A DNA stretch of 64,000 nucleotides from Teredinibacter turnerae. GTDB taxonomy: Bacteria > Pseudomonadota > Gammaproteobacteria > Pseudomonadales > Cellvibrionaceae. A program made the position numbers and the translations under genes. The notes under the pieces were generated by a model that worked only from the letters and a program-made list of their open reading frames with translations, was not told where the DNA came from and did no database searches. The DNA is taken from contig NZ_CP149817.1 of the NCBI RefSeq assembly GCF_037935975.1, positions 1,550,001 to 1,614,000 of the forward strand, written 5' to 3'. Shown in pieces: positions 1-16,929 of the stretch (within the stretch, counting starts at the first letter, position 1; the number at the start of each line of letters is the position of its first letter).

Positions 1-157
1 GGTGTACCTGGTCGGCCTGGAAGTCATCGGTGACACCACTCACAGTTATAGCGACTTTCCCCTCCACTCGCGTTTTGAAGATCGCGGTTTCAAAACGCTT
101 TCCATTTCCACGCCACTGGGCCACTTTGCCGCTATAGACACCAACTACCTTTGTCAT
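1..157 (-). CDS. MOSC-domain protein, 5' part (YiiM-like), runs off the window
   Basis: The minus strand opens with ATG at 157 and stays open to the window edge, giving about 52 residues. The N-terminus (MTKVVGVYSGKV, then ETAIFKTRVEGKV and DDFQADQVH) matches the start of MOSC-domain proteins of the YiiM type, in which a leading beta strand is followed by a TAIFK strand and an acidic segment before the cofactor-binding core. The core, with the expected molybdenum-cofactor cysteine, lies outside the window. E. coli YiiM and YcbX detoxify N-hydroxylated bases (known for the family). Here the gene is the third on the minus strand after the amidotransferase and rubredoxin, 89 bases downstream of the rubredoxin stop. 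A plus-strand ORF covers the same bases but has no recognisable family. Confidence 0.62.
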   Translation of the reverse strand, partial: MTKVVGVYSGKVAQWRGNGKRFETAIFKTRVEGKVAITVSGVTDDFQADQVH

Positions 158-246
158 GAGGAGCCCCCGATATTGCAATCAATACGCTTTCTTTCTTTTG
201 TGTGTTCTGTGGACCCGCTTAGCAGGGACAGTTGGGTATTGGGGCG

Positions 247-459
247 CTAGATTGCATCCGTTTCCGCGTTCGAAGCCGCGCGCTTGCTGCCAAATTGTTT
301 GAGCATACTCTTTTCTAGCAGGCACTCGGGGCAGAGCCAGTCGTCGGGAAGTTCGTCATAGGATGTTCCTGGACGGATTCCGCTACCAGGATCGCCCTCC
401 GATTCGTTGTATATGTACCCACACATGACACAGACGTAAGTTTTTGATCGTTTAGACAT
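247..459 (-). CDS. Rubredoxin
   Basis: A 70-residue protein with both iron-binding knuckles of rubredoxin: CVMCGYIY near the N-terminus and CPECL about 33 residues later, with the usual GDP…G…PGTSYDELPDDWLCP stretch between. It is a soluble one-iron electron carrier. The start is placed at ATG 459 (MSKRSKTYVC) because this gives the normal rubredoxin length; the frame is open further upstream but without homology. The C-terminal tail beyond the second knuckle is about 20 residues of low-complexity sequence. It follows the amidotransferase gene by about 105 bases. Rubredoxins commonly reduce non-heme diiron oxygenases, and a diiron oxygenase is encoded divergently at 2197, so it could be that enzyme's electron donor (inference). 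Confidence 0.88.
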   Translation of the reverse strand: MSKRSKTYVCVMCGYIYNESEGDPGSGIRPGTSYDELPDDWLCPECLLEKSMLKQFGSKRAASNAETDAI

Positions 460-564
460 AACGAGTTGAACTCCATTTGCATTCAGATCGTAGTACTTCA
501 CTTGTGAAATCACGTTTTTTCTATGAAATTGACTGCCTGCCCGTGAGAATAGACGTAGCAATTC

Positions 565-1293
565 CTAAGCATCTATCGCCTCGGCTGGCGTCGATACTTG
601 ATCCAGCCAGCTGAGCCAAATTTCACCGGCAACATGCTCGAGCTTACCTGCGTACTTCGCGCTGTCACTGCGTAGTTGGCTGACGCTCGTTCCGCGTGTT
701 TGAGAAATTTCTGTTGCGTGCCCTATATACCACCGCTCCATATTTAGCTCAGTAACCTCTGGGTGGAATTGCAGGGCTAAACAATTGTTGCGCCACCGAA
801 ATGCTTGATTGGGATAACGCTCACTTGCGGCTAGGTGGACAGCGCCATCGGGTATATCGAACGTATCTCCATGCCAATGGAGAACCGGAACATTCTGTAT
901 TTCAAAGGGTGCGAGTAAAGAACGCTTGCCGGCCTCGGTGAGACTCAAAGGAAACCATCCGATTTCTTTTTCTCCGCCGGGATAGACCTTTGCACCTAAC
1001 GCTCGAGCCATGAGCTGAGCGCCAAGGCAGATCCCAAGAGTCGGTCTGTCTCTATGAAGGCGGCTTTGTAGAATTGAAAGCTCTGTCTTTAAAAAAGGGT
1101 AGTCTGCGTCTTCGTACGCACCTATTGGCCCGCCAAGGATGATCAAAAGATCCGGGTCATCAGCGAGGATTTTATTGAATTCGCAAAGGCCTGCTTCATA
1201 GTAGCTAACGGTATAGTTTAAGCGCGATAGTGCGTCCGCAAGCGTACCCAGATCTTCAAAAGCCAAGTGACGAATTATGGCGGCCTGTTTCAT
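565..1293 (-). CDS. Class I glutamine amidotransferase (GMP-synthase-like)
   Basis: A 242-residue stand-alone amidotransferase. The nucleophile elbow GICLGAQL supplies the catalytic Cys and the later FHPEV supplies the His-Glu pair; ILGGPIGAYED forms the oxyanion region. The overall layout is that of the GuaA N-domain-like family, which hydrolyses glutamine and passes ammonia to a partner or acts on a gamma-glutamyl compound. No synthetase domain is attached, so the acceptor is unknown. Start ATG 1293 is followed directly by MKQAAIIRHL, the usual first beta strand. It is first on the minus strand, transcribed away from the diiron oxygenase/radical SAM pair. Such proteins are sometimes degraders of gamma-glutamylated intermediates, which would also fit a small biosynthetic set. 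Confidence 0.85.
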   Translation of the reverse strand: MKQAAIIRHLAFEDLGTLADALSRLNYTVSYYEAGLCEFNKILADDPDLLIILGGPIGAYEDADYPFLKTELSILQSRLHRDRPTLGICLGAQLMARALGAKVYPGGEKEIGWFPLSLTEAGKRSLLAPFEIQNVPVLHWHGDTFDIPDGAVHLAASERYPNQAFRWRNNCLALQFHPEVTELNMERWYIGHATEISQTRGTSVSQLRSDSAKYAGKLEHVAGEIWLSWLDQVSTPAEAIDA

Positions 1294-2196
1294 TGAATTT
1301 GTCCTTTGTAAATAGCAGTTTTTACGCTTGAATGTAATGTAAAGTAATTACTAGCACGGCGATAAAATAGGTGATGCCATCTATTTTATCGCGCCCTTGA
1401 AATATCGACGATTAATTGTAAATTTCAAGTATTTCAACGAGTTATATCGCCCTTCGGGCACATTGAGTGCTAATCTTTCTGTGCTGGGTATTATCGACCT
1501 TATTTGGTTAAGATTTCCAATAATTAAACTCTTTCAGAAGAATAACTATGCCTTATGGCCATTTGCTTCGTGGCGCTTAAATGGTGTCAACGGTTGCGAG
1601 CGGACAAATCTGTCTCTGTTTTAGTCGGTTTTTTTTGGTGTGAACCGTTGCTCATTCCTGCAGTAAATAATAATTTCGAACTCTGGTGAAAATTTTTAGA
1701 TAATTAAATAGTTATTTAAAATCAATGCGATAATTTTCTTTTTAAGAAAAATAAGAAAACCTTATTTCTGAAAAAACAAATAACTATTGGAATCAACGTC
1801 ATCTGTAGCGTTATACCTTACGCCGCACATCGCGGATCTTAAAAGAGCAGCGTGGATTAAATCAATAAAATCATTGTCCTCGGTTTTTTTAAGGGGCCTA
1901 CTCATAGCGCAAATTGACCAGCCAATTAAAATACAAATTAGGTGTCACTATTAAGGTGGTACACGTTTTCCGTGATCTGCGGAGAAGCTGATATTTCAAT
2001 AATAATTTTCGCTCATATAAAACGCTAAGCGATGTGGCAGGTTGTTGTACATTAGTTCAAGGTTACGGGGCGCGCGAACATGCAAGAAAATTTACGCTCC
2101 AAGCGTCGAAATACCACATTGTTTCGCAGCTAAGGTTTAGCTGCGATAGCAGTGATTGAATCAGTATTAACAGACCAAAAAATGGAGAGTTGTAAA
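1294..2196. other. 900-base AT-rich divergent intergenic region
   Basis: This stretch separates the minus-strand amidotransferase from the plus-strand diiron oxygenase and must carry both promoters. It contains the palindromic repeat described at 1359–1459. The remainder, especially 1680–1800, is very AT-rich with A- and T-tracts. A 75-codon ORF (1397–1624) starts inside the repeat and has no family resemblance, so I do not call it a gene. Confidence 0.6.
1359..1459 (+). repeat. Palindromic repeat element, copy 1
   Basis: The element begins with a 34-bp inverted repeat: arm GCGATAAAATAG (1359–1370), 10-base loop, arm CTATTTTATCGC (1381–1392). A weaker stem follows, TTGAAATA (about 1398) pairing with TATTTCAA (about 1430), and then a UUCG-type hairpin GCCCTTCGGGC (1449–1459). 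A second copy in opposite orientation lies at 63543–63646 with nearly identical spacing. Paired differences between copies preserve the stems. Confidence 0.75.
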
Positions 2197-3183
2197 ATGA
2201 ATATGCCAAAAACAAGTTCAAACGATTATGACGATTCAGTAGATGAGGCATTTGACAATCAAAGCTTTGAAGTGCTTGAACAACTCGCTGAGCACTGGGA
2301 GTTGCGTGCTGGCGTAAAAAAGAAAGAGTTGAATCCGGAAATAACATTTGACGCGCATGCGCCTGACTTTTTACCTGAGCTTTTACCTTTTCACAATCAT
2401 GACCTCTTTTTGTCTGCCGATAGCCAGGTGAAGTCTAAAGCACTTTCATGCGGTTGGGTCGCTTACAACGAAAAAACAATCGATATTGAGTCGTATATTG
2501 TATCGCCTTCCTGTCTCGATATCCTTTACGGAAGACTGCCGCAAACACAAAACAGCATCATAAAATGGACTGCAAGTGAAACCTTAACCGACGAGGCCTA
2601 TCATGTTTTACTTGTTACCAACACCTGTCGAATTACTCGCCAGCGACGTGGGCTTGAAACCCTTAAGCTGCCAACCTTTGATCTCGTGCGATTTATGCAG
2701 CGTGAAATGGCTATGGTGGATGAGGAGTGGAAAAAACGGTTGATAAATCTGGCTACAGCTACCGTGTCTGAGGTCTTTGTCAGTGATTACCTGTCATTGA
2801 TAGCCGACGCTGAGCACATTCAACCGATCAATAGGCTAACGACAGATGTTCATCGCAAGGATGAAATGGCGCATAGCAGTATTTTTAAACATCTCATGAA
2901 GATTATCTATCCATACTTAACCCAAAAAGAACAGGATTATCTGGCTGAGATACTTCCAAAACCTGTTAGTTGGTTTGCCAGTCAAGAACTTGATGTCTGG
3001 GAGAGCATGCTGAGTCAAATCAGGTTTCCGAATTACCAGGAAATGATTGCGGATTGCCGATCCGAGCATATAGTTAACCTCGGGCGCATTGACTACTCCG
3101 GATTAACAACCCTCGCTGATGAGCTGGGAATTTTACGCTCCCAGCGTGGACAGGATAGCTTTGGTGAAGCCGGCCTGCAGTAG
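2197..3183 (+). CDS. AurF-family diiron oxygenase (putative N-oxygenase)
   Basis: A 328-residue protein resembling AurF, the p-aminobenzoate N-oxygenase (PF11583 family). All seven AurF diiron ligands (Glu101, Glu136, His139, Glu196, His223, Glu227, His230, quoted from memory) have counterparts here at Glu98, Glu133, His136, Glu192, His219, Glu223 and His226, with an almost constant offset of 3–4 residues. The motifs are DEAYH, SEVF and HRKDEMAH. The start is ATG 2197 behind a GGAGAG ribosome site; upstream in-frame codons are not needed. Family members oxidise aryl or alkyl amines to hydroxylamine or nitro groups, though some perform other oxidations. The next gene on the same strand is a radical SAM protein 331 bases downstream. 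The substrate is unknown. Confidence 0.82.
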   Translation: MNMPKTSSNDYDDSVDEAFDNQSFEVLEQLAEHWELRAGVKKKELNPEITFDAHAPDFLPELLPFHNHDLFLSADSQVKSKALSCGWVAYNEKTIDIESYIVSPSCLDILYGRLPQTQNSIIKWTASETLTDEAYHVLLVTNTCRITRQRRGLETLKLPTFDLVRFMQREMAMVDEEWKKRLINLATATVSEVFVSDYLSLIADAEHIQPINRLTTDVHRKDEMAHSSIFKHLMKIIYPYLTQKEQDYLAEILPKPVSWFASQELDVWESMLSQIRFPNYQEMIADCRSEHIVNLGRIDYSGLTTLADELGILRSQRGQDSFGEAGLQ

Positions 3184-3514
3184 TAAGCTGGTGAGAAAAC
3201 CTACATGGGGTATGCGCTCCCCTGCGTGCGGTCCACAAAAATTGTTGGCCTATGAAGTGTTGTGATGCGCATGCTCCCGCGACTGTCAATCAAAAAAGTT
3301 ACACTCTGAGATCTCTGAAGACGAGCTATTCAATAATAATCTGTTTCATTCTGCGCTTTAGCGGCAAAAAAGGTTATTGGAGTCTTTCAAAACCGTTAGT
3401 AGTGTTGTCGCCTCGTGTTTCTTTGGTCATTTCAATGCTCAGCTTGGCAGTCATAATTTTTTATTTTTTATCGTCACTCAATCACATACGGATCTTTTAT
3501 ACCGGAGAAACTTG
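3184..3514. other. Intergenic region with first copy of a 16-bp direct repeat
   Basis: No convincing gene is seen in these 330 bases. The sequence AAGGTTATTGGAGTCT occurs at 3370–3385 and again, exactly, at 4857–4872 just after the next gene. The last bases carry the GGAGAA ribosome site of the radical SAM gene. Confidence 0.6.
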
Positions 3515-4855
3515 ATGACTACACTTAACGATCTAGTGCGTAAAATACAGACGCTTGCAGAGGAGATATACCCACCCGACCTTTCTGCCGCTTATAGCGA
3601 GTTGGAAAACAGTCTTAACGACACCAGAAATGCCATCAAAATCGCGAAAAAAATCAAAGAACTCAAGCAAACATACAAAACGAAAGCATACAGTATCGAC
3701 TGGTCGGACTTTTTTGAGAGAATTACCCAGGATTTTAAAAATGGTTCCAGCATTTCTATCGAAGACATTATAAAACTGGAGTATGCCCCAGAGGATCAAG
3801 CCGATAACGTTATCGAATTGCTCAATGTAGTGGCAGCCAATCGCGTAACGGAGAACAACGAGGCGATTCGCGTTTGTCAGTCCATATACGCGTTCACAAC
3901 GTGCTTGACACCGTGCAACTACGGTACGTACGGGTCTTGCATTTTTGTACCGAAAGATAATGAAGAAACAAGCGTGGCTGAGCGGATACTTGGAAATATA
4001 AACACAGTAGAGGAGTTTGTTGAGGCGATTAAAAACAAATCTTATTCTAACAATCGCAAACTTATCACCACATCTCGTACAATCACTAGCCACCAATTTC
4101 GTGTGATTCTGAACACCATAAGAGAGATTCGTGCGAGCGACGACCCACACTGCCGTGATCTTCCCATGTGCGTATCGCTTGGGTCTTTGAATGAAGACCA
4201 TATTATTCAGCTTAAGGATGCTGGGGCCACTAGAATTAATCACAATCTCGAAACCTCCTATTTTAATTCTTTGTATTTATCTGCAATGTCTCAGATGGAG
4301 GATGAACAGAAACCGAAGAAAAAAACATTAGATAATGAACACAAGCGCAGGTTGTCCACGCTACTATCTGGACTGAAGAATGACATCGGCTTTTGCTCCG
4401 GTGGTATGCTTTTCTATGGTGACGATGAGATGGTTGAAGACAGAATACTGCTTTACCTCACATACCGAGAGCTCGACAAAATAAAGGGGGGTAACTCATC
4501 CCCGTTTAATGTTTACGTTCCGCTTGATGAAATCGTTGAAAAATCCAGTGAATGGTTCAGCACCTTTGAACTACCCGTCATTGAGCGAAAGGCTCAAGTT
4601 GATCGTTATAGCATTCTTAAAACCTTATTGTCGTTTAGTTTAATTGTCTCAAGTCAGCACAAAATCATTGTTAGTGCAGGATCAAAATGGCTAGGAGACG
4701 AATACTACGCACTTGCGATTAAGCTCTCGGGCGGCGCTGGTTTAGCCAATTACCTCCAGCAAATAGATTCCGAAACCACTAAGAATGTGGTGGACAAGTT
4801 GACTCGAGAGAAATTTGCAAGCAGCTCACCAGAGGCAATACCGAATCAAATGTAA
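3515..4855 (+). CDS. BioB-like radical SAM protein with non-canonical cysteine motif
   Basis: A 446-residue protein related to biotin synthase over its C-terminal two thirds: MCVSLGSLNEDHIIQLKDAGA, then TRINHNLETS, CSGGMLFYGD, SSPFNVYVPL and IIVSAGSKW correspond in order to BioB segments ending with the SAGRE strand. The Fe-S motif is not the usual CX3CX2C. Cys130 and Cys134 are present, the third position is Gly, and the next Cys is Cys142, giving CX3CX7C. Of the BioB [2Fe-2S] ligands, the Cys97 and Arg260 equivalents are absent while Cys128 and Cys188 equivalents remain. About 125 residues precede the motif, against about 50 in BioB, and are partly helical/charged. Start ATG 3515 follows GGAGAA. 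It is not a normal biotin synthase; the reaction is unknown. It is the likely partner of the upstream AurF-like enzyme. Confidence 0.75.
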   Translation: MTTLNDLVRKIQTLAEEIYPPDLSAAYSELENSLNDTRNAIKIAKKIKELKQTYKTKAYSIDWSDFFERITQDFKNGSSISIEDIIKLEYAPEDQADNVIELLNVVAANRVTENNEAIRVCQSIYAFTTCLTPCNYGTYGSCIFVPKDNEETSVAERILGNINTVEEFVEAIKNKSYSNNRKLITTSRTITSHQFRVILNTIREIRASDDPHCRDLPMCVSLGSLNEDHIIQLKDAGATRINHNLETSYFNSLYLSAMSQMEDEQKPKKKTLDNEHKRRLSTLLSGLKNDIGFCSGGMLFYGDDEMVEDRILLYLTYRELDKIKGGNSSPFNVYVPLDEIVEKSSEWFSTFELPVIERKAQVDRYSILKTLLSFSLIVSSQHKIIVSAGSKWLGDEYYALAIKLSGGAGLANYLQQIDSETTKNVVDKLTREKFASSSPEAIPNQM

Positions 4856-4856
4856 C

Positions 4857-4872
4857 AAGGTTATTGGAGTCT
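4857..4872 (+). repeat. Second copy of 16-bp direct repeat
   Basis: AAGGTTATTGGAGTCT, identical to 3370–3385, begins two bases after the stop codon of the BioB-like gene, so the two copies bracket that gene as a 1.5-kb unit. Confidence 0.7.
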
Positions 4873-4906
4873 CATTTCTAGCAGGGAAGCTTATAAATTC
4901 GTTATA

Positions 4907-4925
4907 GGGATTTGAACTGGCGTCC
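4907..4925 (-). other. tmRNA T-arm-like fragment, candidate island left end
   Basis: On the plus strand GGGATTTGAACTGGCGTCC matches the complement of this genome's own ssrA 3' T-arm (19347–19365) at 16 of 19 positions and in the same orientation. Direct repeats of a tmRNA 3' end are typical attachment-site scars. The match is short and imperfect, so this is a candidate only. Confidence 0.4.
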
Positions 4926-5049
4926 TTATATGGCCTCGATTCAAGTTCGATGGGGACTTGAACTTAATTTCTACCTGAAACGCCCTAAGATAAGCGAAGC
5001 TTAACCCGGGCCATCTTGCTCATCCAAAAAACGAACGGTATCTTCCTTC

Positions 5050-5421
5050 GACATGTAGCTATGCTTTCACTTCGTCTTGCCAACTTTCTTTATCGAAAAT
5101 CGGCAGCTGGCATAACGCAGGTGTGAACCTTAAGAAGCGAAGCGCGTAAAGGCCAATAATCTGTTGTCCAGCCAAGTGCCGATAGGTGGTCTGATCGCTT
5201 AATTCACTAAACTGACGTTGGGAGCAATCCTGGCATTTGATATGTGGTTTGTTGCAGACCCCTTTTATCCACTCATTGTTTCAAGCCACTGAGTAGCCAC
5301 TTCGTCCTTGTTGATTTTGCCAACGGTTGGCAAAAATATCGGTGCGCCCCCGGAACAAGCGTCTGAAAATCGCTATCTTTTGTTCTGGCGAGAACGATTC
5401 TGGAAAAGAAGGTATGTGCTT
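5050..5421 (-). pseudogene. Remnant of a primase–helicase gene (paralogue of 7493–9913)
   Basis: Reading the minus strand from 5421, one frame gives FSPEQKIAIFRRLFRGR, DIFANRWQNQQGRSGYSVA, then an in-frame TGA where the paralogue has Cys, then NNEWIKGVCNKPHIKCQDC and SDQTTYRHLAGQQIIGLY. These align with residues about 60–130 of the intact primase–helicase at 7493–9913. Further on, after frame disruption, FDKESWQDEVKA matches that protein's FDKDGWQDAVKA segment before another stop. Everything downstream of that is gone. The fragment abuts the truncated tacT-like gene directly, so one recombination event probably joined the two. Confidence 0.75.
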
Positions 5422-5422
5422 T

Positions 5423-6032
5423 GGTTTTTGCATCCAGGCCTGTGCCCTTATGGCGGATGGCCACGTCCAGGCGTGCCATTAAAATCAGTGGCACTGGATA
5501 GTGCGGCAAGCTTTGTTTGGTCGGTATCTGCTCACGGGTGACGTTGCTTGTCGTGAGTGTAAAATACGCCGCGATGGGTGCTTTGCCAGTTTCGGTGATT
5601 TCCGGTAGAGCATAGGTGTGGCTCAGTCCAAGCTTGCCGTGTTTTTCAGCGAACCTGGCGAGGAAGGCGTTCATTGTGGGTATGCCGCAGTCAAAGGCCT
5701 CTAGGGCCTGTTAACACTAATTCAATTCGCTCTGCTGGAGTCTGTATTTTCAGGATGAAAGGCATTTTTTGCGTTGTTTAGCGGGCTAAACGAGCGAAAA
5801 ATAACGCATCAGCCTGGAAATACAGGCCCAGCCCTGCGGGTTGCGGCTAAAATCCCGCTCTCAGCGTTGTTTATCGCTCATTTGGAACAACCAAACTATG
5901 CTCCAAACGTCGGGGTGCCGCATCACTTGATAGCGAAATTTTAGCCGCAACAGAATGAATCGAATTAGTGTTAACAGGCCCTAGGTCGTGGTGACCTTTA
6001 CTTGCGGCAACAAAGACCTGCTCCAGTGGCAA
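5423..6032 (-). pseudogene. TacT-like GNAT toxin, split by a MITE and truncated at the C-terminus
   Basis: The reading frame starts at TTG 6032, directly after the antitoxin stop: MPLEQVFVAASKGHHD. It is interrupted at codon 17 by the 276-bp MITE (5705–5980), and resumes as LEAFDCGIPTMNAFL through RLDVAIRHKGTGLDAKT at about 5423, where homology to GNAT toxins ends and the helicase remnant begins. Removing the MITE and one CTAG copy restores an uninterrupted frame. The C-terminal acceptor half, with the last acetyl-CoA-binding strands, is missing, so the toxin was probably dead irrespective of the MITE. TacT-type toxins acetylate charged tRNAs (known for the family). The remaining ORF at 5273–5674 is a chimera of this remnant and an out-of-frame helicase fragment. 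Confidence 0.8.
5705..5980. mobile_element. 276-bp MITE with CTAG target duplication
   Basis: The ends are 30-bp inverted repeats matching at 27 of 30 positions, starting GGCCTGTTAACACTAATTC on both sides. It is flanked by CTAG at 5701–5704 and 5981–5984. The 4-bp YTAR-type duplication is typical of IS5-family transposition (inference on family). Inside are two further inverted repeats: CTGTATTTTCAGG (about 5741) with CCTGGAAATACAG (about 5813), and GTTGCGGCTAAAAT (about 5839) with ATTTTAGCCGCAAC (about 5938). There is no transposase gene. Confidence 0.85.
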
Positions 6033-6302
6033 TTAGAACCCCTCGCTGTCCAGTCTTTTCGCGGCATCGAGGATCTTTTTGCTGGGTGCTTTTGCGGTTT
6101 CACACACTTTTATGAAGTGGTCAAAACGCTCATTAGTCAATACGATCTCGTTTTGGGCTTTGAGGCGTTGCGGGGCATCATTGCGCACCAGGTAAGCGAG
6201 ATAGTCGGTCAAGCTGTAGCCGCTGGCCAAGGCGGCACGTTCTGCCAGCGCTTTGAGTTCGGCGGGAAATCGGGCTTCTATACGTTCGGCTTTTGTGGTC
6301 AT
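6033..6302 (-). CDS. TacA-like antitoxin (DUF1778, ribbon-helix-helix)
   Basis: An 89-residue DUF1778 protein. The N-terminus MTTKAERIEARFPAELKALAERAALASGYSLTDYLAYLV is the ribbon-helix-helix DNA-binding part, and the C-terminal half, with ERFDHFIKVCE…PSKKILDAAKRL, is the toxin-neutralising tail. It lies immediately upstream of the disrupted GNAT toxin, the standard TacAT order with antitoxin first. A near-perfect palindrome at 6336–6352, 34 bases before the start, is the likely autoregulatory operator. The gene itself looks intact, so it is an orphan antitoxin now. Confidence 0.88.
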   Translation of the reverse strand: MTTKAERIEARFPAELKALAERAALASGYSLTDYLAYLVRNDAPQRLKAQNEIVLTNERFDHFIKVCETAKAPSKKILDAAKRLDSEGF

Positions 6303-6335
6303 GGGATACCTCCAGCGTTTTCACTCAGCTTTGCA

Positions 6336-6352
6336 TACGGCAAGTTGCCGTA
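6336..6352. promoter_or_regulatory. Putative TacA operator palindrome
   Basis: TACGGCAAGTTGCCGTA is a 17-bp palindrome broken only at its centre. Its position just upstream of the ribbon-helix-helix antitoxin start suggests the autoregulatory site. Confidence 0.5.
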
Positions 6353-7062
6353 CAAGACAACAGTTCCAGAGAGCAAACCCCTTGATCAGCCAAACCCTAT
6401 TGAACCGGGCCCGATGTCCCTAGATGTGTGTTTCTGGCAATACCATTCTGGAGAGTGGTCCACCCCGCGTAACAGATGGTTTGATGCACTTATTAGTGAG
6501 GTACAGGCTGTTATATTTGATCTTTGAACGAGGTTGCTGTGTACTTAAAATTAGCTGAGCGATAGCAGACAGCAGGCAGGCCGCAGAGGGTAGACTACAG
6601 GGCCTAAAAGCTTGTGGTAGTTGGCGTTTTAAGCGCGAAGATATTGGAGTGGATAGAAACGAAAAAGAAGAATAAAAGTAGGGATATATTGGATGTTACT
6701 TGCTATCAAGAGAAGCGCTGAGAGTAAGTACGCTAAGCCATCCTTGGTTCAGTCTCAGCGCGAGATCGCTGAAGGTGCATGCGCTTCAGGTTGGCACGGC
6801 TTCGGGTGGAGCCAAATGGCGTAGAGCCGGCAGATCAAACTCCAGGGTTTCTATATTAAGCCGCCATGGCTTACTTTATTCCCCACTTGGTTGCCTGTCT
6901 GACGGCCTTTTCCTATAGTTTTAGTTAACTTCTTCCATTGGCATGCCTGGAAGAAGCTCTCCTGGCGTGGACAATTTGTGGACATCTGTGAACGTTTTGA
7001 ATCTTTCGTCATAAAAAACCCTAACAAAATCAATTTGTAAGGTTTTTTTTGGTGGTGCTGTA
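6353..7062. other. 700-base stretch without a recognisable gene
   Basis: Only short ORFs without family resemblance occur here. Near its end, 7016–7050 can fold as a hairpin flanked by A- and T-runs, AAAAAACC…GGTTTTTT, which could act as a terminator. The tmRNA-like fragment follows directly. Confidence 0.45.
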
Positions 7063-7081
7063 GGACGCGGGTTCAACTCCC
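7063..7081 (+). other. Foreign tmRNA T-arm fragment, candidate attachment scar
   Basis: GGACGCGGGTTCAACTCCC is the classical tmRNA T-arm as found in enterobacterial ssrA. This genome's own ssrA has GGACGGGGGTTCAAATCCC at that place, so this fragment appears to come from a different host's tmRNA gene. It is inverted relative to ssrA at 19334–19724. Confidence 0.5.
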
Positions 7082-7221
7082 AAAACGGGAACTGAATTGG
7101 TCCATTAAACCGGTGCTTTCACCTGAGCCAAATCCCTGCCTGCAAATGTCCTAAATAGCTTGCAACCCTTCCTGCTACGAGCGTTCATGGCCTCCCGCAA
7201 ACAACAATAAGGTGAGCGAAA

Positions 7222-7449
7222 ATGGAAGTATTACATATGAACCAGCGGCAGCTGGCAAACCGATGGGGCGTCAGTGAGGCCTGCCTTGAGCGCTGGCGAT
7301 CTGAAGGCATTGGCCCGCAATTTCTGAAGCTGCGTGGTCGAGTGATGTACCGCCAGGTTGACGTTGAAGCCTTTGAGGAAAGCTGCCTGAGGCAGTCGAC
7401 CAGCAGCTCTAAACCCAAGCAGCAGATCCGCTCGGTACCGTCGGCGTAA
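7222..7449 (+). CDS. AlpA/excisionase-type helix-turn-helix protein
   Basis: A 75-residue protein with a single winged-helix domain of the MerR/AlpA excisionase type: NQRQLANRWGVSEACLERWRSEGIGPQFLKLRGRVMYRQVDVEAFEE. The pattern, a helix-turn-helix followed by a G-x-GP-x-F-x-K-x-x-x-x-x-Y strand and a DVEAF helix, is characteristic. Such proteins are excision factors or regulators on integrated elements. The first in-frame start is ATG 7222; a second ATG five codons later (MNQRQL) is an equally good start. It stands alone on the plus strand, converging with the primase–helicase gene; its stop lies 44 bases from that gene's stop. Confidence 0.75.
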   Translation: MEVLHMNQRQLANRWGVSEACLERWRSEGIGPQFLKLRGRVMYRQVDVEAFEESCLRQSTSSSKPKQQIRSVPSA

Positions 7450-7492
7450 CGATCTTGCGGCCGATGCAATGCATTGTCAGCAATGGCGGGCA

Positions 7493-9913
7493 TTATTCGG
7501 CCGCGCCATTTTCGCCAGCGTCATAATCAGTTTTCCAATCGGAATATTGTATTTGATAGCCCATCGCTTTATATCCCTTCTCGCGCTTAATAAACATGCG
7601 CTGAAGCATTGGCAGGGATGCATCAACATAGTCAAATATCGTAACCAGCTCCTTGCCTTCAACTTCGCGATGGATCCTTCCTGCATATTGAGCCAGTGAA
7701 CCTTTCCAGGCTATTGGCATTGCCAGAAATAGAGAGTCGAGTCGTGGCAAGTCGAACCCCTCACCAACGTACTTTCCAGTGGCAACGACTACTTGGGCGT
7801 CAGACAGTCGTTCCGTAGCGGATTTACGTTCATTGGCTCGCATTGCCCCTTTCAGGATTACCGAGTCAAAACCTTGATCAGTCAGTAATTGGTTGATTCG
7901 TTCTGCATGCTCACGCCGTTCTGTGAGCACTAAAGGATGTTTATCATCTGCTATTTTAGCGATGACATCGTCGACGATTTTTCGGTTGCGTTTTTCATCT
8001 TCCGCCAACCATCGGTAAACATCAGTAATGCGCGGCCGCTGCTCTAAATGTGTCAGCTCAATTGGCGGTTGGCTGTAGAGTTGGGTAACATTGACTCGCT
8101 GCTCGAAACGCTCTGAATGGTCAGGCTTAACCTTGTGACGTATCGGGCCAGCCGTCATAAAAATGATTTTCTGATGGCCATCCTGCCGGTCTGGTGTTGC
8201 TGTTAATCCAAGAACAAATTTTGCGCGCACTTCATTCAGCACCATTTCAAATCGCGGTGCTGAAATATGATGGCACTCATCCACAATGATATGGCCATAG
8301 TCCTGTACTAGCGGATCTACGGTGTTGTCATTTTTGTTGATAAGGCTTTGATAGGTGGCGATGTCTATCTGTCCAGTCGGTTTTTTCTTGCCTCCGCCAA
8401 TTGTGCCAATCTCTGTTTCTGTCAGGAATGCATCCAGGCGCTCTTTCCATTGGTCGAGCAGCTGGCGACTATGTGTGAGGATCAAGGTATTTGTCTTGCG
8501 TTTGGCGATAACTCCAATAGCAGTTACTGTTTTTCCGAAGGCCGTAGGAGCATGCAGAACGCCGGTATCGTGTTTGGTTATGACGCTCACTGCTGCGGTT
8601 TGGTTTTTTCTCAGCGTGCCGAGAAATTTGAGTTTTTTCAGTCGCTCTCCAGTTTCGCGCTTGTCGTCAATAATTGCCGTGATTTTGTGTTCATCAAGTA
8701 GCGTCAATCCGTCATCAAGGCATCCACGCGGTATGGATAGATAACCCTGCTCAATGCGGGCGCAAGTAATATATCCGGGGATCTTATGGGTTGAAAACCT
8801 CATTGCCTGTGTTTTAAAGAATACAGGATTGGAAAAGCTAGCCAATCGTCTGAGCCTGGCTGTCAGCGGTGCAGGCAATTCATCGAGTTTGAAGTAAATA
8901 TGATTTGCCAGTGTGATGGTTACATGCTCGGGACAGTTATCGATCTTCTCAGGCTTGATTTTGGCACCCTGTTCCCAGGGTGGTCTGGAATCGATAATTT
9001 CTTGCTCGAATAGCTTCAATTCATTAGGCGCCAGAACTGCGATCAATTCAGCCAACTGTGTTGATGAAACCCTTGTTATTTGCTTCAATTGTTGCCACTG
9101 GTCGACGAAAGGCTCCAATGCTTGATCGACAAATTGACTGTTTCCGCTCTGCCTGACTTGCTTCTGCAGCGGCAGTGCGATGAGATTGCCAAAGCCACCA
9201 TCTGGCATAATATCCTGATTGGGAAACAGGCGGTCATAAGACTCGAATGAAAGGTTTGGATGGATTTCCATCGCCTTGTCGAGTAGTCCGAATCCCAACA
9301 GTCTGGCATCGCGGGCCGATACCGCGTCAGTAAAGAAGACCCAAAGGTGAGCACCATTACCTGATCTTGAAATCTCTACCAAGTGCGGAATGTTGTATCG
9401 CCTGCAAGCTTCCGACATGGCTTTTACAGCGTCTTGCCAACCATCTTTGTCGAAATCGGCTGCTAATAAATGGCAGGTATTATCTGGCAAAAGCGGATAG
9501 AGCCCGACGATATGTTTGCCTGCCAAATGGTCGTAAATCGCTTGGTCGTCTAGCGCTTTGTGCTGTCGATTCGGGCACTCGCTACATTTAATGTCTGGCT
9601 TTTTGCAGATGCCAGGCACCCACTCGTTATGGCAAGCAACAGAATAACCGCTGCGACCTTTCGAGTTTTGCCATCGAGTGGCAAATACATCTGCTCGGCC
9701 TTTAAAAAGCTGCTTAAACAGAGCGACTTTCTGATTGACGGTAAGTGACTCGAGTGTTCGAGTTTCGATTATCTGCCTTGTCTTTTCCTCTTCGTACAGC
9801 TCGATCAGAGAATCACGCTTGGTCTTTAAAGTTTTGAGCTCTTCCTCCAGCTGGACAATTCTCTGGTTTATTGATCGTAGATCTGCACTGGTTTCACTGT
9901 CAACGCCACTCAT
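7493..9913 (-). CDS. AEP-type primase fused to superfamily 2 helicase (TOTE conflict-system-like)
   Basis: An 806-residue two-enzyme protein. After a coiled-coil N-terminus (about 1–45) comes an archaeo-eukaryotic primase-like domain: a Cys-rich segment (ACHNEW, CKKPDIKCSEC), the catalytic ADFDKDGW (DxD) and SGNGAHLWVFF. The C-terminal half is an SF2 helicase: APTAFGKT (Walker A), VDECHH, LTATPDRQDG, and GSLAQYAGRIHR (motif VI). This architecture is the one named TOTE conflict-system primase–helicase, tied to mobile-element conflict. The start at 9913 (MSGVDSE) overlaps the end of the AbiEii gene; an upstream ATG at 9937 is also possible. The overlap suggests co-expression with AbiEi/AbiEii. 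A decayed paralogue lies at 5050–5421. Confidence 0.82.
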   Translation of the reverse strand: MSGVDSETSADLRSINQRIVQLEEELKTLKTKRDSLIELYEEEKTRQIIETRTLESLTVNQKVALFKQLFKGRADVFATRWQNSKGRSGYSVACHNEWVPGICKKPDIKCSECPNRQHKALDDQAIYDHLAGKHIVGLYPLLPDNTCHLLAADFDKDGWQDAVKAMSEACRRYNIPHLVEISRSGNGAHLWVFFTDAVSARDARLLGFGLLDKAMEIHPNLSFESYDRLFPNQDIMPDGGFGNLIALPLQKQVRQSGNSQFVDQALEPFVDQWQQLKQITRVSSTQLAELIAVLAPNELKLFEQEIIDSRPPWEQGAKIKPEKIDNCPEHVTITLANHIYFKLDELPAPLTARLRRLASFSNPVFFKTQAMRFSTHKIPGYITCARIEQGYLSIPRGCLDDGLTLLDEHKITAIIDDKRETGERLKKLKFLGTLRKNQTAAVSVITKHDTGVLHAPTAFGKTVTAIGVIAKRKTNTLILTHSRQLLDQWKERLDAFLTETEIGTIGGGKKKPTGQIDIATYQSLINKNDNTVDPLVQDYGHIIVDECHHISAPRFEMVLNEVRAKFVLGLTATPDRQDGHQKIIFMTAGPIRHKVKPDHSERFEQRVNVTQLYSQPPIELTHLEQRPRITDVYRWLAEDEKRNRKIVDDVIAKIADDKHPLVLTERREHAERINQLLTDQGFDSVILKGAMRANERKSATERLSDAQVVVATGKYVGEGFDLPRLDSLFLAMPIAWKGSLAQYAGRIHREVEGKELVTIFDYVDASLPMLQRMFIKREKGYKAMGYQIQYSDWKTDYDAGENGAAE

Positions 9914-10802
9914 TGGCCGCCATCCAATTTTTAACAAAAGGCTGACCTGAGCGTACCGCCTCTATGATAGGTGCAAGAAAGCTTGTTACTTGAGCAACGA
10001 TATCGGAAAAGTCGTTTGGTAAATACTCCTGGTTAATTCGTCGGCAAAATGCTGTCCACTGAACCTGTTTTTCTTCGATGAATGGTGCTTGGAAGGCGAC
10101 GATATTGTTTGAAAGGGTTGTGCCTCGCCGTTTAAATGTAAGCTGAATTGCTTGCGCTAATTGACTGCCATTGAAGTTAAACTGTCGCGAGAGCAGCCAA
10201 ATATCATAAAAGTCCTTCATTCGGCTGTTCAGGACTCCGAGCTTGACCATCGCTTCGAACTTCTCCGCAATGGCGCTCTCACGGCTGTAGCAGAGCAATC
10301 TCGGAGCAGTGAAGTCGAGTATGGTCGGCAGATCACATTCTTCCGGACTTGGGTGAACAATATCTCCGAACCCAATATCAATCTGCATATTAATTCTGGC
10401 TGATTCAAGAGTGCCTCGAAACCTTATGCGAACGCCCTGATAGTCTGCATCCTCTTTGATCCGTTCAGATTGAATTGAGTCAACATCGAAATTCAAACCG
10501 TCGGGCTCAACCGCCAAATTAAGAACTTCAGTTATCTGCGACACGATATTGGCTTCATCATTGCTGGTTTTTCCCAGCATATCGATGTCCATCGTTGGCC
10601 TGAATTCTGGTGATTCCCAAACACGCAGCATCAGAGCACCTTTAAGGATGAAGTGCTTTGAGTGGGTTGATTGGGACAAGCGATATAAAAATCTCTCCAT
10701 GGCATAGTATTGGAGCAATTCGGCAAATGGCCGCTTATCGCTTCTTGCGCGGTTCAGTAGTTTTTGGCGTACCGAGGCTGCGATATTTTTAGTTGTACTC
10801 AA
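9900..10802 (-). CDS. abiEii: AbiEii-type nucleotidyltransferase toxin
   Basis: A 300-residue AbiEii/AbiGii family protein. The nucleotidyltransferase signature is visible as LKGALMLRVW, then RPTMDIDML with the DxD metal pair, followed by KFEAMVKLG and RMKDFYDIWLL, the conserved C-terminal motifs of this family. The start is TTG 10802, whose TTGA overlaps the stop of the AbiEi gene. AbiEii toxins modify tRNA or bind GTP and are bacteriostatic (known for family members). The gene's 3' end overlaps the start of the primase–helicase by about 14 bases, making a tight three-gene operon. Confidence 0.88.
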   Translation of the reverse strand: MSTTKNIAASVRQKLLNRARSDKRPFAELLQYYAMERFLYRLSQSTHSKHFILKGALMLRVWESPEFRPTMDIDMLGKTSNDEANIVSQITEVLNLAVEPDGLNFDVDSIQSERIKEDADYQGVRIRFRGTLESARINMQIDIGFGDIVHPSPEECDLPTILDFTAPRLLCYSRESAIAEKFEAMVKLGVLNSRMKDFYDIWLLSRQFNFNGSQLAQAIQLTFKRRGTTLSNNIVAFQAPFIEEKQVQWTAFCRRINQEYLPNDFSDIVAQVTSFLAPIIEAVRSGQPFVKNWMAANEWR

Positions 10803-11419
10803 AGTGTGGCCTCTAAGTAGGGGCGCATTATTTTTTCGACTCGGCAGACTCTTGCATACATTATTAGCTTTTCGAGATTGAATGTTTTGCGCGCTTTATA
10901 GAAGTTCAGTGCTTCTAGCACTATGTCCATTCCCAGCTTGTTTCTGAATTTAAAGCAGTCAGCCAGAGTCTTTTCTGGGCAGTAAATATTGATTGAAACA
11001 CCATCAATCTGATGCGTTTCAACCCCTTCTTTCAGTGCAGCCTCAGAAAACCTATGCACCGAGATCGGTGGATAGTCTACCCGAGGAGTTTCCGCGCCTT
11101 TGGGCAGAGCAATAGAAACAGCATGCGGAATTTGGGTGGTGATATCGTGATAAGCCAGTGCCGAAACGAGGCAGATGACTGCTTGAGGAACCCGTTTGGC
11201 TACGATCACAAGGTCCGGATCAGACATTTGGTCCTGATCCATAAGGCGATAAACACCACGAGATAGGACTTCTAGCTCACCGGAATCTCTGAGTTGGTAC
11301 AGAGTTCGAGGGTGAATCCCCGCCTGGATTACATCCATTGTCCGAATTGTGCCCCCTAGCTCTCGGATGGCATCAAGGGCCTTACGGCAGGCTTTGCTTG
11401 TTGCAGGCATTCTGGCCAC
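10799..11419 (-). CDS. abiEi: AbiEi-type antitoxin and repressor
   Basis: A 206-residue AbiEi family protein. The N-terminal winged helix-turn-helix (ALDAIRELGGTIRTMDVIQAGIHPRTLYQLRDSGELEVLSRGVYRL) is followed by the AbiEi C-terminal antitoxin domain, including ALAYHDITTQIPHAVSIALPKGAETPR and CPEKTLADCFKFRNKLGMDIVLEAL. It is the first gene of the operon and is expected to bind inverted repeats upstream; such a repeat lies at 11430–11455. Length and motifs are intact. Confidence 0.88.
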   Translation of the reverse strand: MARMPATSKACRKALDAIRELGGTIRTMDVIQAGIHPRTLYQLRDSGELEVLSRGVYRLMDQDQMSDPDLVIVAKRVPQAVICLVSALAYHDITTQIPHAVSIALPKGAETPRVDYPPISVHRFSEAALKEGVETHQIDGVSINIYCPEKTLADCFKFRNKLGMDIVLEALNFYKARKTFNLEKLIMYARVCRVEKIMRPYLEATL

Positions 11420-11429
11420 GGATAATAAA

Positions 11430-11455
11430 ACCTATAGAACTAAATATGTATAGGT
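11430..11455. promoter_or_regulatory. Inverted repeat upstream of abiEi, putative operator
   Basis: ACCTATA (11430–11436) and TATAGGT (11449–11455) form an inverted repeat 11 bases upstream of the AbiEi start. AbiEi proteins are known to repress their own promoters through inverted repeats. Confidence 0.5.
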
Positions 11456-11577
11456 AATACTATCCATTTAAGTGGGAGTCGGCAAGTAATGAATGATGAA
11501 GAGTAATTGCCGTGTAATATGACTAACCACCTGAGGAGTGACTTGCTCACCGGCCCGCAGCTTCATCCATGATGTTG

Positions 11578-11615
11578 CTAAATGTCGGCAATTATCAGGA
11601 TTTGCCGACGTTTAG
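11578..11615. repeat. Strong inverted repeat between abiE and recombinase modules
   Basis: CTAAATGTCGGCAA (11578–11591) and TTGCCGACGTTTAG (11602–11615) are inverted with one mismatch and a 10-base spacer. There is no T-run on either side. A second small palindrome, TTAAACCCAGGGTTTAA, lies at 11649–11665. These could be a terminator-like structure behind the minus-strand recombinase operon or a recombinase binding site. Confidence 0.5.
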
Positions 11616-11679
11616 TTACAGGTGATGGGTTTAGAATTGTCGTGATACTTAAACCCAGGGTTTAACAATCGACGGTATT

Positions 11680-12186
11680 TCAAACCATATGCCTTTCCCG
11701 CTGTTCCGACCACAGTCTTGGCGGGTCCACCGCCAGGTCAAACAGGGTGATATTAGGCGGCAAACATTCGTCCAAAATGGCCTCGACGATATCCGGCGCC
11801 AATGTGGTCAGGTTAACCATCCGGCTGATGTAGCTATTGTCGAGCCCCTCCAATTGGGCAATCTCGCGCAAAGAGCGGACTTCGCCCGTTTCCAGCATTT
11901 GCAACCAGCGATGCCCTCGAGCCAGCGCCAGCTGCAGTGGGGTTGGCTGGGTATCCCAAGGTCTGGGCTCGTCCGGCAAGGTTATCAAGCGCCGTCCGCT
12001 GCGGCGCTTCAGGTTGATGGGGACGTTGATGCTCAGTTTGCAGTCACTGGACTCGACCACACTGGCCGCTCCGGGTCGCTCGAACTCAAAGGGGTAGCCG
12101 CTACCTTTGTTGCTCACCCCGTCCTTGGGGTTCGCCGCTTCGCGGCCCACAGAGCGGTCCAAATTTTTTCCTGAAAAATTTGTCAT
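11680..12186 (-). CDS. Recombinase-associated helix-turn-helix protein
   Basis: A 168-residue protein. The C-terminal half carries a helix-turn-helix with LATGHRWLQMLE-like spacing: LALARGHRWLQMLETGEVRSLREIAQLEGLDNSYISRMVNLTTLAPDIVEAIL. This is the small ParB/KorB-like or LuxR-like domain often found behind large serine recombinases. The N-terminal 70 residues are polar and basic without a recognised fold. Its ATG overlaps the recombinase stop codon (ATGA), so the two are translationally coupled. A regulatory or accessory role in recombination is inferred from position only. Confidence 0.6.
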   Translation of the reverse strand: MTNFSGKNLDRSVGREAANPKDGVSNKGSGYPFEFERPGAASVVESSDCKLSINVPINLKRRSGRRLITLPDEPRPWDTQPTPLQLALARGHRWLQMLETGEVRSLREIAQLEGLDNSYISRMVNLTTLAPDIVEAILDECLPPNITLFDLAVDPPRLWSEQRERHMV

Positions 12187-13532
12187 GCCACATCCTCCTG
12201 CTTGTAGGAATCGGTAATTTCCAGAGCCAGCCGCTCAACGCCATTGTCCCTCAGGCGCACATCCACGCTATCGGGGCTGACCACCACCTTCTCAACCATC
12301 AATCGGATGATCCGAGCCTGCTCCTCCGGAAATAGCTGATCCCACACTTTGTCGATCTGGTTGAGGGCCACTGCTACCTGAGCCTCATCCATGGCATCTT
12401 CCCGCTGGCCGGTAACGGCCGCGATTCGTTCTCTAACTGGCGCGGTTTGTAGCAGGCCACGAATCTGATCGACCACCACCGATTCAAGCTCGGCAGCCGG
12501 TATTCTCGGCAGGCCGGAAGCACCTGAAAACTCCTTCGTATCCCGGGTACTAATGTAATACCGGTACCGGCGCCCGCTTTTCTTCTTGGTCGAGGTCCAG
12601 CATGTCAGAGCGCGGCCATCCTTGCCGAAAATCATGCCCTTTAGTAAAAACGGGATTTTGCCTTTGGTGTAGTTACCACGCGTCCGGAAGTTAACAGCCA
12701 GGATGGAGTGCACATCGTCCCAGAGCTTTTTGTCGATAATCGGTTCGTGTTTACCGTCGTACCATTGATCCTTGTGCCGCAGCTCACCAAGGTAGGTCCG
12801 GTTGTTTAACAGTTTGTATATCAGCCCTCGATCAATCAGCTTGCCTGGGCGATGACGACCGTCTTGCGTGGTCCACGACTTGCTCGTGATATTCTCCAAT
12901 CTGAGCTCTTTGTATAGAAGTGTGGTGGAGGCTATTTCAGTGAACCGCTTAAAGATGTGCTTGATGAGCTTGGCTTCCTGCGGATTGACCACCAGGCAGC
13001 GATCGACAACATCGTAGCCAAGCGGCGGAATGCCACCCATCCAGAGTCCTTTCTTCTTGCTGGCGGTGATCTTGTCGCGGATGCGTTCGCCGGTGACTTC
13101 TCTTTCGAACTGAGCAAAGGACAGCAAGATATTCAGCATCAGCCGCCCCATGGAGTTGGTGGTATTAAACTGCTGGGTCACTGATACAAAGGAAACGCCA
13201 TGGCGCTCGAAGACTTCGATCATCTTGGAGAAGTCCATCAGGCTGCGCGTCAGGCGGTCTATCTTGTAGACCACCACCACATCGACTCTGCCTTCCATAA
13301 TGTCGGCCAGCAGGCGTTGCATCGCTGGCCGGTCCATATTCCCGCCAGAATATGCCGGGTCGTCATAGTCGTTTTCGACAGGGATCCAGCCTTCCGCCCG
13401 TTGGCTAGCAATGTAGGCATGGCCCGCGTCTCTCTGGGCGTCAATCGAGTTGTATTCCTGGTCGAGCCCTTCATCGGTTGATTTACGTGTGTAGACAGCG
13501 CACCGTAGGCGCTTTTTTATTTCTGAGCTCAT
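12183..13532 (-). CDS. Large serine recombinase
   Basis: A 449-residue serine site-specific recombinase. The N-terminal resolvase domain begins RCAVYTRKSTDEGLDQEYNSI, with the catalytic Ser in TRKS, and continues with the DRLTRSLMDF motif; the middle is a recombinase domain (GIPPLGYDVVDRCLVVNPQEA); the C-terminal part has a KKKSGRRYRYYIS strand of the zinc-ribbon type, but the usual zinc Cys residues are missing, as in a known subgroup. Start ATG 13532 is chosen because it overlaps the DUF2924 stop (TGATG); the longer reading from 13604 has no support. The neighbours are a DUF2924 gene and small accessory genes, a recurring mobile module in proteobacteria. Confidence 0.88.
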   Translation of the reverse strand: MSSEIKKRLRCAVYTRKSTDEGLDQEYNSIDAQRDAGHAYIASQRAEGWIPVENDYDDPAYSGGNMDRPAMQRLLADIMEGRVDVVVVYKIDRLTRSLMDFSKMIEVFERHGVSFVSVTQQFNTTNSMGRLMLNILLSFAQFEREVTGERIRDKITASKKKGLWMGGIPPLGYDVVDRCLVVNPQEAKLIKHIFKRFTEIASTTLLYKELRLENITSKSWTTQDGRHRPGKLIDRGLIYKLLNNRTYLGELRHKDQWYDGKHEPIIDKKLWDDVHSILAVNFRTRGNYTKGKIPFLLKGMIFGKDGRALTCWTSTKKKSGRRYRYYISTRDTKEFSGASGLPRIPAAELESVVVDQIRGLLQTAPVRERIAAVTGQREDAMDEAQVAVALNQIDKVWDQLFPEEQARIIRLMVEKVVVSPDSVDVRLRDNGVERLALEITDSYKQEDVA

Positions 13533-14023
13533 CAGCTTTTTCTCCCCTTGGTTTTGCTCTTGTAGACTTCTTTGCGCAAGCCAAAGAACAACGGGCCAGA
13601 CCATTGTGTACCGGTAATTTCTCTGGCAATGACCGACAGGCTTTTATAGATGCGCCCTTCAAATTCGTACTGACCGTCATGCGTGACGGTCACGCGATAC
13701 TCTTCATCGCGGTAAAGCCGAGATAGCACTGTCCCAGCGATCGGTTGTGGATAGCGATCGCGTAACGGTTTCTTGCCCGTCTGCATGATGGCCGCAATTC
13801 GGCGGTCGTTTTTATCAGCTTCGGTCTAATGGGCTCGCCTGAATTCTTGTTCTTGCAGCCGGTAAGCCAGCCTTCGTTCAAGAAAGGTTCGAATATGGGT
13901 GGGTGGCTCGCTGCGATATACTTTCCGCCACAGCGATTTAATTTCCTCAATGTCCATGTCGGGCAATTGCGCGATTTGCGCGACGACCGATTTCGAGGGT
14001 TGGAAGATTACTTTTTTGCTCAT
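13532..14023 (-). pseudogene. DUF2924 gene with one in-frame amber codon
   Basis: The frame from ATG 14023 encodes MSKKVIFQPSKSVVAQIAQL through EEIKSLWRKVYRSEPPTHIRTFLERRLAYRLQEQEFRRAH, then hits TAG at 13826–13828. The same frame continues without any shift as TEADKNDRRIAAIMQTGKK to the normal DUF2924 ending with GPLFFGLRK. Both halves are recognisable DUF2924 sequence, and the total, about 163 codons, is the usual length. So one nonsense substitution splits the gene, unless the TAG is read through. It overlaps the upstream small gene and the downstream recombinase, as in intact modules. Confidence 0.85.
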
Positions 14024-14289
14024 TCTGCCTCCGATTTATTTGTACTCTCAGCGTTTGCATGGCCGCTCTCGTCCATCCATGGACTTCGCGGCATTCGTGC
14101 GTCCTGCACATCAACGCTTCGGTAGGCAGGCATAGCAAGTGAAATATCGCTATCTGAGTCCGAATCTGTTGGCAGTTTTTGGGCTGGCATTCGCAAGCGC
14201 ATAAGCCCTTCGGCCATAATATTAGCGACTTCCAGAAGCCGCTGATCTTGAGTCATTCGCTCAGGCGATAATGAGTTCGTATTTTTCAT
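14020..14289 (-). CDS. Small hypothetical protein of the recombinase module
   Basis: An 89-residue hydrophilic protein starting MKNTNSLSPERMTQDQRLLEVANIMAEGLMRLR, then a D/S-rich linker (SDSDSDIS) and a charged tail. I do not recognise a named family. The MTQDQRLLEVANIMAEGLMRL helix resembles small proteins that regularly precede DUF2924 and serine recombinase genes. Its stop overlaps the DUF2924 start (ATGA), placing it first in that operon. An ATG at 14328 would add 13 residues. Confidence 0.55.
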   Translation of the reverse strand: MKNTNSLSPERMTQDQRLLEVANIMAEGLMRLRMPAQKLPTDSDSDSDISLAMPAYRSVDVQDARMPRSPWMDESGHANAESTNKSEAE

Positions 14290-16913: not shown

Positions 16914-16929
16914 TTCGTTCCTCCAAGTA

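Follow-up and report, generated by a model that had tools for sequence, protein, structure and literature searches.

A possible rubredoxin-linked relative of the Dnf hydroxylamine system in Teredinibacter turnerae

We analyzed a small gene cluster at the beginning of a 64,000-nt stretch of the Teredinibacter turnerae chromosome (5.35 Mb; G000:C1:1550001-1614000, where G000 is the genome), hereafter called the window. The cluster encodes an AurF/CmlI-type diiron oxygenase, a class-I glutamine amidotransferase, a rubredoxin, a MOSC protein, and a BioB-like protein, putatively of the radical S-adenosylmethionine (SAM) family. With moderate confidence, we consider its best explanation to be a relative of the Dnf (Dirammox) system in which a rubredoxin would supply the electrons and hydroxylamine would be made from glutamine. 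What we observed are the genes present, their recurrent linkage, the positions of the ligands, the predicted fold, and the phylogeny; the substrate, the product, the electron route, and the role of the MOSC protein are inferred. The cluster bears on how heterotrophs form hydroxylamine without ammonia monooxygenase, and the Dnf papers cited here deal mainly with Alcaligenes.

The oxygenase locus and its proposed chemistry

The oxygenase gene (2197-3183, + strand; DnfA-like; PF11583, E = 1.1e-61) lies in a reading frame open from GTG 2152, and its likely start is ATG 2197, preceded by GGAGAG. Its seven diiron ligands (E107, E142, H145, E201, H228, E232, and H235) were invariant in 34 aligned sequences, which bears out an earlier note on this DNA, made from the letters alone, that had found the AurF ligand set complete. 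Ligand spacing is the same as that of the residues given for DnfA in the accessible part of PMC9478400. The structural model (predicted local distance difference test, pLDDT, 87.3; template modeling score 0.92-0.93 to CmlI, normalised by target) predicts the CmlI/AurF fold. Predicted fold and diiron ligands are thus common to the window protein and the arylamine N-oxygenases CmlI and AurF, but the tree branch differs.

Adjoining the oxygenase gene divergently, across an AT-rich intergenic region of ~0.9 kb (1294-2196; GC 0.367), is the gene for the DnfC-like amidotransferase (565-1293, − strand; NF005458, 315.6 bits, cut-off 250). Its Cys-His-Glu residues are intact; C89, H177, and E179 were retained in 38/38 AurF-linked relatives, and identity to the amidotransferases of Alcaligenes loci was 46-47% over 239 amino acids. 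The same strand carries the rubredoxin gene (247-561, likely start ATG 459; PF00301, 73 bits) and the 5′ part of the MOSC (YiiM-like) gene (1-157), which runs past window base 1 and is whole in the genome at G000:C1:1549459-1550157. A convergent LysR gene lies beyond it, outside the window. Family matches and coordinates confirm the five genes in two divergent groups that had been described before. The MOSC protein contains MOSC (PF03473, 117 bits) and YiiM_3-alpha domains, as do YiiM/YcbX-type proteins; its score against NF008577 (6-hydroxyaminopurine reductase) was 128 bits, below the equivalog cut-off of 294. In all likelihood it is a YiiM-type reductase that uses the molybdenum cofactor.

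The earlier note held that no system with such a set was described. This did not stand, since the literature describes dnfABC in Alcaligenes and TsnB6/7/9 in Streptomyces. According to the accessible parts of the Dnf papers, DnfA, DnfB, and DnfC produce hydroxylamine and N2 (PMC11440038, PMC11160463, PMC9478400, PMC12575085); dnfA and dnfC are required for hydroxylamine production in Alcaligenes, glutamine synthetase (glnA) is essential, and DnfC hydrolyses both glutamine and glutamyl hydroxamate (PMC11440038, PMC11160463). The window and dnfABC have in common an AurF-family oxygenase, with the same seven ligands at the same spacing, and beside it a class-I glutamine amidotransferase of matching type. 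In contrast to dnfABC, the window has a rubredoxin in place of the FAD/2Fe-2S reductase DnfB, MOSC and LysR genes, a divergent gene order, and an AurF of a separate branch. A DnfB-type query found no match in 82 kb around the locus, and a MocR (DnfR) query none near it.

In the Streptomyces system, which serves trichostatin and benzohydroxamate synthesis, an AurF homologue is likewise proposed to hydroxylate the glutamine amide; the accessible text states that TsnB7, the AurF homologue, and the hydroxyamidotransferase TsnB9 form glutamyl hydroxamate and pass on its hydroxylamine (PMC11160463, PMC13418202). The partner there differs from that in the window, being TsnB9, and an AsnB query of the window region gave no match. 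TsnB9 is AsnB-like.

Because the window oxygenase shares the ligands and spacing of DnfA and the predicted fold of CmlI and AurF, we propose the sequence glutamine, glutamyl hydroxamate, hydroxylamine. Reduced by the rubredoxin, the oxygenase would use O2 to hydroxylate an amide nitrogen, most likely that of the glutamine side chain, which would yield glutamic acid gamma-hydroxamate. This compound would be hydrolysed by the amidotransferase to glutamate and free hydroxylamine, unless the hydroxylamine is passed to an acceptor. The MOSC protein may then shield the cell by reducing surplus hydroxylamine or by-products that carry an N-hydroxyl group. An N-oxygenated product together with self-protection, as suggested earlier, fits this scheme. 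For Alcaligenes, glutamine hydroxylation by DnfA has been proposed but is disputed, and the step from glutamine to hydroxylamine is described as lacking direct evidence in the accessible part of PMC11440038.

The arrangement of the BioB-like gene with the AurF, amidotransferase, rubredoxin, MOSC, and LysR genes was the same in a sister species of the genus (G003). The corresponding side of smpB, covered over 15.8-20 kb (40 kb in two cases), lacked all six genes in six further genomes of the genus. Ratios of non-synonymous to synonymous substitution rates (dN/dS), calculated from two sequences only (G000 and G003), were 0.16 for AurF (8 synonymous, 5 non-synonymous changes), 0.11 for the BioB-like gene (14 and 6), and 0 for the amidotransferase (4 and 0). 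As synonymous changes exceed non-synonymous ones, the AurF and BioB-like genes look maintained. For rubredoxin (0.57; 1 synonymous, 2 non-synonymous), no constraint was seen, with few changes.

Partners of AurF-like oxygenases in other genomes

We scanned genome_contigs (84,980 species according to its description) with an AurF alignment and kept the best 80 of 202 relatives, all of which were examined with flanks of up to 10 kb a side. According to the tblastn table, partners in these 80 loci were amidotransferase (38), DnfB-type reductase (23), MOSC (11), rubredoxin (9), and AsnB-like enzymes (7). In a maximum-likelihood tree of 85 rows, branch R comprised the window, G003, and 23 loci from Chromatiales, cyanobacteria, Tistrella, Aureimonas, Burkholderiales, Acinetobacter, metagenome-assembled genomes (MAGs), and one Streptomyces. 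Amidotransferase was present in 20/23 of these loci, rubredoxin and MOSC in 9/23 each, and DnfB in 0/23. Branch D contained 23 loci of Alcaligenes, Pseudomonas, Herbaspirillum, and others, plus G009, from another genus of the family. Here, DnfB was found in 23/23, amidotransferase in 18/23, AsnB in 2/23, neither of the latter two in 3/23, MOSC in 2/23, and rubredoxin in 0/23. The two branches were separated at 100/100 support, with the window protein outside the branch of Alcaligenes DnfA.

The grouping of AurF, amidotransferase, rubredoxin, and MOSC genes recurs across loci. Linkage with the amidotransferase amounted to 20/23 in branch R versus 0/29 in the arylamine branch, which includes CmlI and AurF (Fisher p = 1.4e-11), and MOSC was found in 11/38 loci with amidotransferase versus 0/42 others (p = 1.1e-4); rows are not independent in either comparison, and near-copies (L129/L130, L136/L137, L170/L173) make the Fisher values overstate independence. 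The arylamine branch also scored 0/29 for AsnB, rubredoxin, MOSC, and DnfB. Of the three branch R loci without amidotransferase (L127, L132, L137), L137 is on a contig that stops ~2.1 kb past AurF, and its near-twin L136 has the amidotransferase 5.1 kb past AurF. The earlier note had made its proposal depend on linkage of the two strands' genes in other species and on co-occurrence of the AurF-like and BioB-like genes. The former was found in branch R; the latter was seen in two sister species only.

Rubredoxin and DnfB were mutually exclusive by branch (9/23 and 0/23 in R versus 0/23 and 23/23 in D), and none of the nine rubredoxin loci among the 80 had DnfB. Judged from gene neighbourhood, the diiron site is likely to be reduced by rubredoxin, in agreement with what had been supposed, and the MOSC protein is proposed as a candidate for protection. 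In L129 and L130, MOSC lies 7.4-7.5 kb away. Fourteen other MOSC matches in 13 of 97 relatives had no LysR, rubredoxin, or amidotransferase gene within flanks of ~1.5 kb.

The planctomycete AurF branch had an AsnB-like enzyme in place of the amidotransferase (5/5). In these loci (L140, L142, L144, L147, L148), the AurF gene is followed by the AsnB-like gene, possibly as hydroxyamidotransferase pairs; the enzyme of L148 has Asn_synthase and GATase_7 domains.

Amidotransferases of the window type, searched at E ≤1e-40, occurred in 25/274 genomes of the class. An AurF of the window kind predicts the amidotransferase but not vice versa, because 22 of the 24 amidotransferases besides that of G000 had neither AurF nor MOSC nearby; a further one (L230) had a MOSC gene within 1.5 kb. 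In the amidotransferase tree, the window protein stood beside the proteins of L129, L130, and L146 (85/89; the latter two loci are from Chromatiaceae), in agreement with the AurF tree, and three unlinked proteins shared this group. Rows for unlinked amidotransferases were chosen by a crude open reading frame (ORF) rule; two came out with implausible branch lengths, and the program left one out.

These three loci are among the nearest AurF relatives of the window. In Halochromatium glycolicum (L130:9938-20015), the gene order is AurF, amidotransferase, a rubredoxin fused to an NAD-dependent-reductase-like domain, an octahaem protein, and HaoB. The octahaem protein has 8 CXXCH motifs and scored 589 bits to the solved Nitrosomonas-type hydroxylamine oxidoreductase (HAO; 6m0p), and HaoB scored 146.5 bits to TIGR04392, under the equivalog cut-off of 200. 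By eye, the genes past HaoB look like CcmF, CcmH, and CcmI. The same run from AurF to HaoB was seen in Thiorhodococcus minor (L146:769-6966) and in L129, a MAG nearly identical to L130. No HAO or amidotransferase was found in the fetched DNA of L132 (Chromatiales). A general coupling of HaoB and AurF was rejected, as none of nine HaoB-bearing genomes of the class had AurF of the L130 type; so far, the HAO link is confined to these three loci, two of them near-identical. The coupling is thus lineage-specific, yet HAO and HaoB downstream of AurF point to hydroxylamine as the product. As an observation in its own right, the run from AurF to HaoB offers a possible route into hydroxylamine oxidation free of ammonia monooxygenase. 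A hao gene has been reported in the purple sulfur bacterium Thiocapsa, with no hydroxylamine source described in the accessible part of that source (PMC8767323), and our literature search returned no paper pairing HaoB with Halochromatium.

Several results weigh against a glutamine-dependent, rubredoxin-driven source of hydroxylamine. In the accessible part of PMC11440038, DnfA bound hydroxylamine and not glutamine. The window AurF sits on a separate branch from its counterparts in the Alcaligenes loci L177 and L195, taken as dnfA from gene arrangement, and shares only ~31% identity with them. Support for branch R is weak (87/72), and the grouping of the window with Chromatiales rows (98/92) was flagged by the tree program for long branches and may be a false join. 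Rubredoxin was missing from the fetched DNA of 14/23 branch R loci. The amidotransferase group lies on the strand opposite AurF, only one of the 24 other amidotransferases (L220) had AurF and rubredoxin within 1.5 kb, and unlinked amidotransferases were scattered among linked ones in the tree. For MOSC, dN/dS was ~1.07 (2 synonymous, 7 non-synonymous), so that no constraint was seen, again with few changes. Finally, HAO was found in neither G000 nor G003, and AurF of the L130 type was present in 0/9 of the genomes with HaoB (9/369 of the class).

Among the matches listed, our literature search, which did not cover subscription papers, found none that connects AurF or dnfA with a partner rubredoxin or with a MOSC protein. 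The sole mention of rubredoxin in the accessible text of PMC11160463 concerns a zinc-ribbon domain of another cluster; two further papers naming both AurF and rubredoxin are reviews of spectroscopy and artificial metalloproteins. Holders of Dnf homologues named in the accessible part of PMC12575085 are Pseudomonas, Delftia, and 'Microvigula'. With our survey, pairs of AurF and amidotransferase now reach into cyanobacteria, purple sulfur bacteria, one Streptomyces, and the Alpha- and Betaproteobacteria; it also places rubredoxin in the position that DnfB holds elsewhere, brings in the recurrent MOSC gene as candidate protection, and locates the pair beside HAO and HaoB in Chromatiaceae.

The BioB-like gene and competing explanations

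The BioB-like gene (3515-4855, + strand, 446 amino acids) encodes a protein with an atypical cluster motif, CLTPCNYGTYGSC, i.e. CX3CX7C instead of the canonical CX3CX2C. One alignment reads it as C-LTP-C-NY-GTYGS-C, CX3CX2C spacing with a five-residue insertion; a second BioB alignment sets it differently, and the motif is canonical in neither. Scores were 17.8 bits for Radical_SAM in Pfam (cut-off 29.5) and 59 bits for TIGR00433 bioB (cut-off 225). The protein aligns to BioB over the barrel part, sharing 28 positions with all five, and 34 with four, BioB rows from viral contigs. BioB holds its auxiliary cluster by three Cys and one Arg. The window protein keeps NHN and T of NHNLETS and the Cys equivalents of two auxiliary ligands (C219, C294), but the third Cys and the Arg are replaced, and it is ~70 residues longer before the motif than BioB of the genus. 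Its AlphaFold model (with four viral-contig BioB rows) had a pLDDT of 44.4 and was not used. An ordinary bioB is encoded elsewhere in G000 (421 bits). An upstream start at TTG 3377 is unlikely; G003 has a stop in the upstream part and keeps the frame from ATG 3515.

An orthologue was present only in G003 (98.7% over 446 amino acids) among 97 relatives (G000 included), and none was found beyond it in 369 class and 398 phylum genomes (overlapping sets) or in viral_contigs, plasmids, and phages. Six short peptide patterns of the one protein found none in genome_contigs, a search that distant relatives could escape. Matches outside G003 were weak (at most 31 bits in relatives, class, and phylum, and 62 bits in plasmids and phages); annotated ones were biotin genes. 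None of the 80 AurF loci encoded a BioB-like protein (0/80), and the pair was therefore rejected as a conserved system; the earlier view of this gene as part of a conserved pathway is not upheld. From these comparisons, the protein seems a private addition of the lineage, to which we assign no step.

It is quite possible that the BioB-like gene is unrelated cargo of the island on the ssrA side, placed beside AurF by chance, which is compatible with a Dnf-like hydroxylamine source. The gene adjoins an island that carries toxin-antitoxin, recombinase, and integrase genes, has a GC content of 0.426 against 0.537 for the backbone, and has no orthologue in the other six genus genomes searched. Against such an origin, the GC of AurF is likewise low (0.446), and the order of the two genes is kept in two species although the island next to them has different contents in each. 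Given that both lie below the backbone, base composition suggests that AurF and the BioB-like gene were acquired; the amidotransferase group (0.505-0.514) is closer to the backbone value.

A small natural-product pathway, with AurF as N-oxygenase of a specific amine and the BioB-like protein as a core enzyme adding a radical step, appears unlikely to us. The BioB-like gene does follow AurF directly on the same strand, across a 331-base gap (3184-3514) without a + strand terminator-like site, and is kept in the sister species at the low dN/dS given above. It is nevertheless missing from the surveyed AurF loci, AurF does not group with the arylamine branch, the BioB-like protein shows changes in the SAM-cluster motif and at two of the four auxiliary ligands, and no carrier protein, nonribosomal peptide synthetase, or polyketide synthase was found among the neighbouring genes scanned (not every neighbour).

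Rather improbable is a hydroxylamine-consuming module, in which AurF would oxidise hydroxylamine to N2 or N2O, with MOSC and the amidotransferase handling hydroxylated metabolites. Purified DnfA indeed turns hydroxylamine into N2 with O2, NADH, and FAD, as stated in the accessible part of PMC9478400, but this would leave unexplained both the recurrent amidotransferase or AsnB partner and the need for dnfA and dnfC in Alcaligenes hydroxylamine production. An arylamine or nitro-compound pathway was dismissed as the principal explanation, with AurF outside the arylamine branch and the amidotransferase recurring.

A wider form of the preferred hydroxylamine-producing reading is speculative and, in our estimate, doubtful: branch R would be an ammonia-monooxygenase-independent entry to hydroxylamine, from which HAO in Chromatiaceae would yield electrons and nitric oxide or nitrite out of glutamine nitrogen, and in the window lineage the hydroxamate or hydroxylamine would pass to the BioB-derived CX3CX7C enzyme, building an N-oxygenated compound.

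Neighbouring island and related clusters

Beside ssrA (19334-19724), an island occupies window positions 5273-19300. It carries genes for a TacA-like antitoxin (6033-6302), a TOTE primase-helicase (7493-9937), an AbiEii/AbiEi pair (9900-11419), a serine recombinase (12183-13604), an ankyrin protein (14419-16353), and a tyrosine integrase (17821-18609). Three further genomes of the genus have partial TOTE matches less than 20 kb from smpB (L203, L205, L207). Beside the BioB-like gene, short stretches like the TOTE N-terminus, perhaps remnants, were noted at window 5273-5674 (by eye) and L019:8107-8388; at that place G003 carries genes for a HigB-like toxin and a helix-turn-helix protein.

PADLOC and PHROG families (E 0.001) gave no match for AurF, the BioB-like protein, or MOSC, and a defence system was rejected on this basis. 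Terminator-like sites numbered 15 (5.9 expected), the promoter scan was uninformative (10 seen, 8.9 expected), and an Rfam scan of window 1-6000 gave no match at the gathering threshold.

No AurF relatives were found in viral contigs and no near DNA match to window 1-9900 in plasmids; AurF relatives occurred in 15 plasmid records (best 47%). In G071, G009, G073, and G037, four further relatives, AurF genes sit in other settings. The one in G009 (L092:5767-10536) may belong to a different hydroxamate-type cluster; by eye, it lies with split AsnB-like ORFs, a gene for a 2Fe-2S reductase, and a hydroxylase-like gene. On a Pantoea agglomerans plasmid (L257:3390-9173), genes for a diiron oxygenase, an iron-sulfur reductase, an ATP-grasp protein, and a major facilitator superfamily transporter stand in a row.

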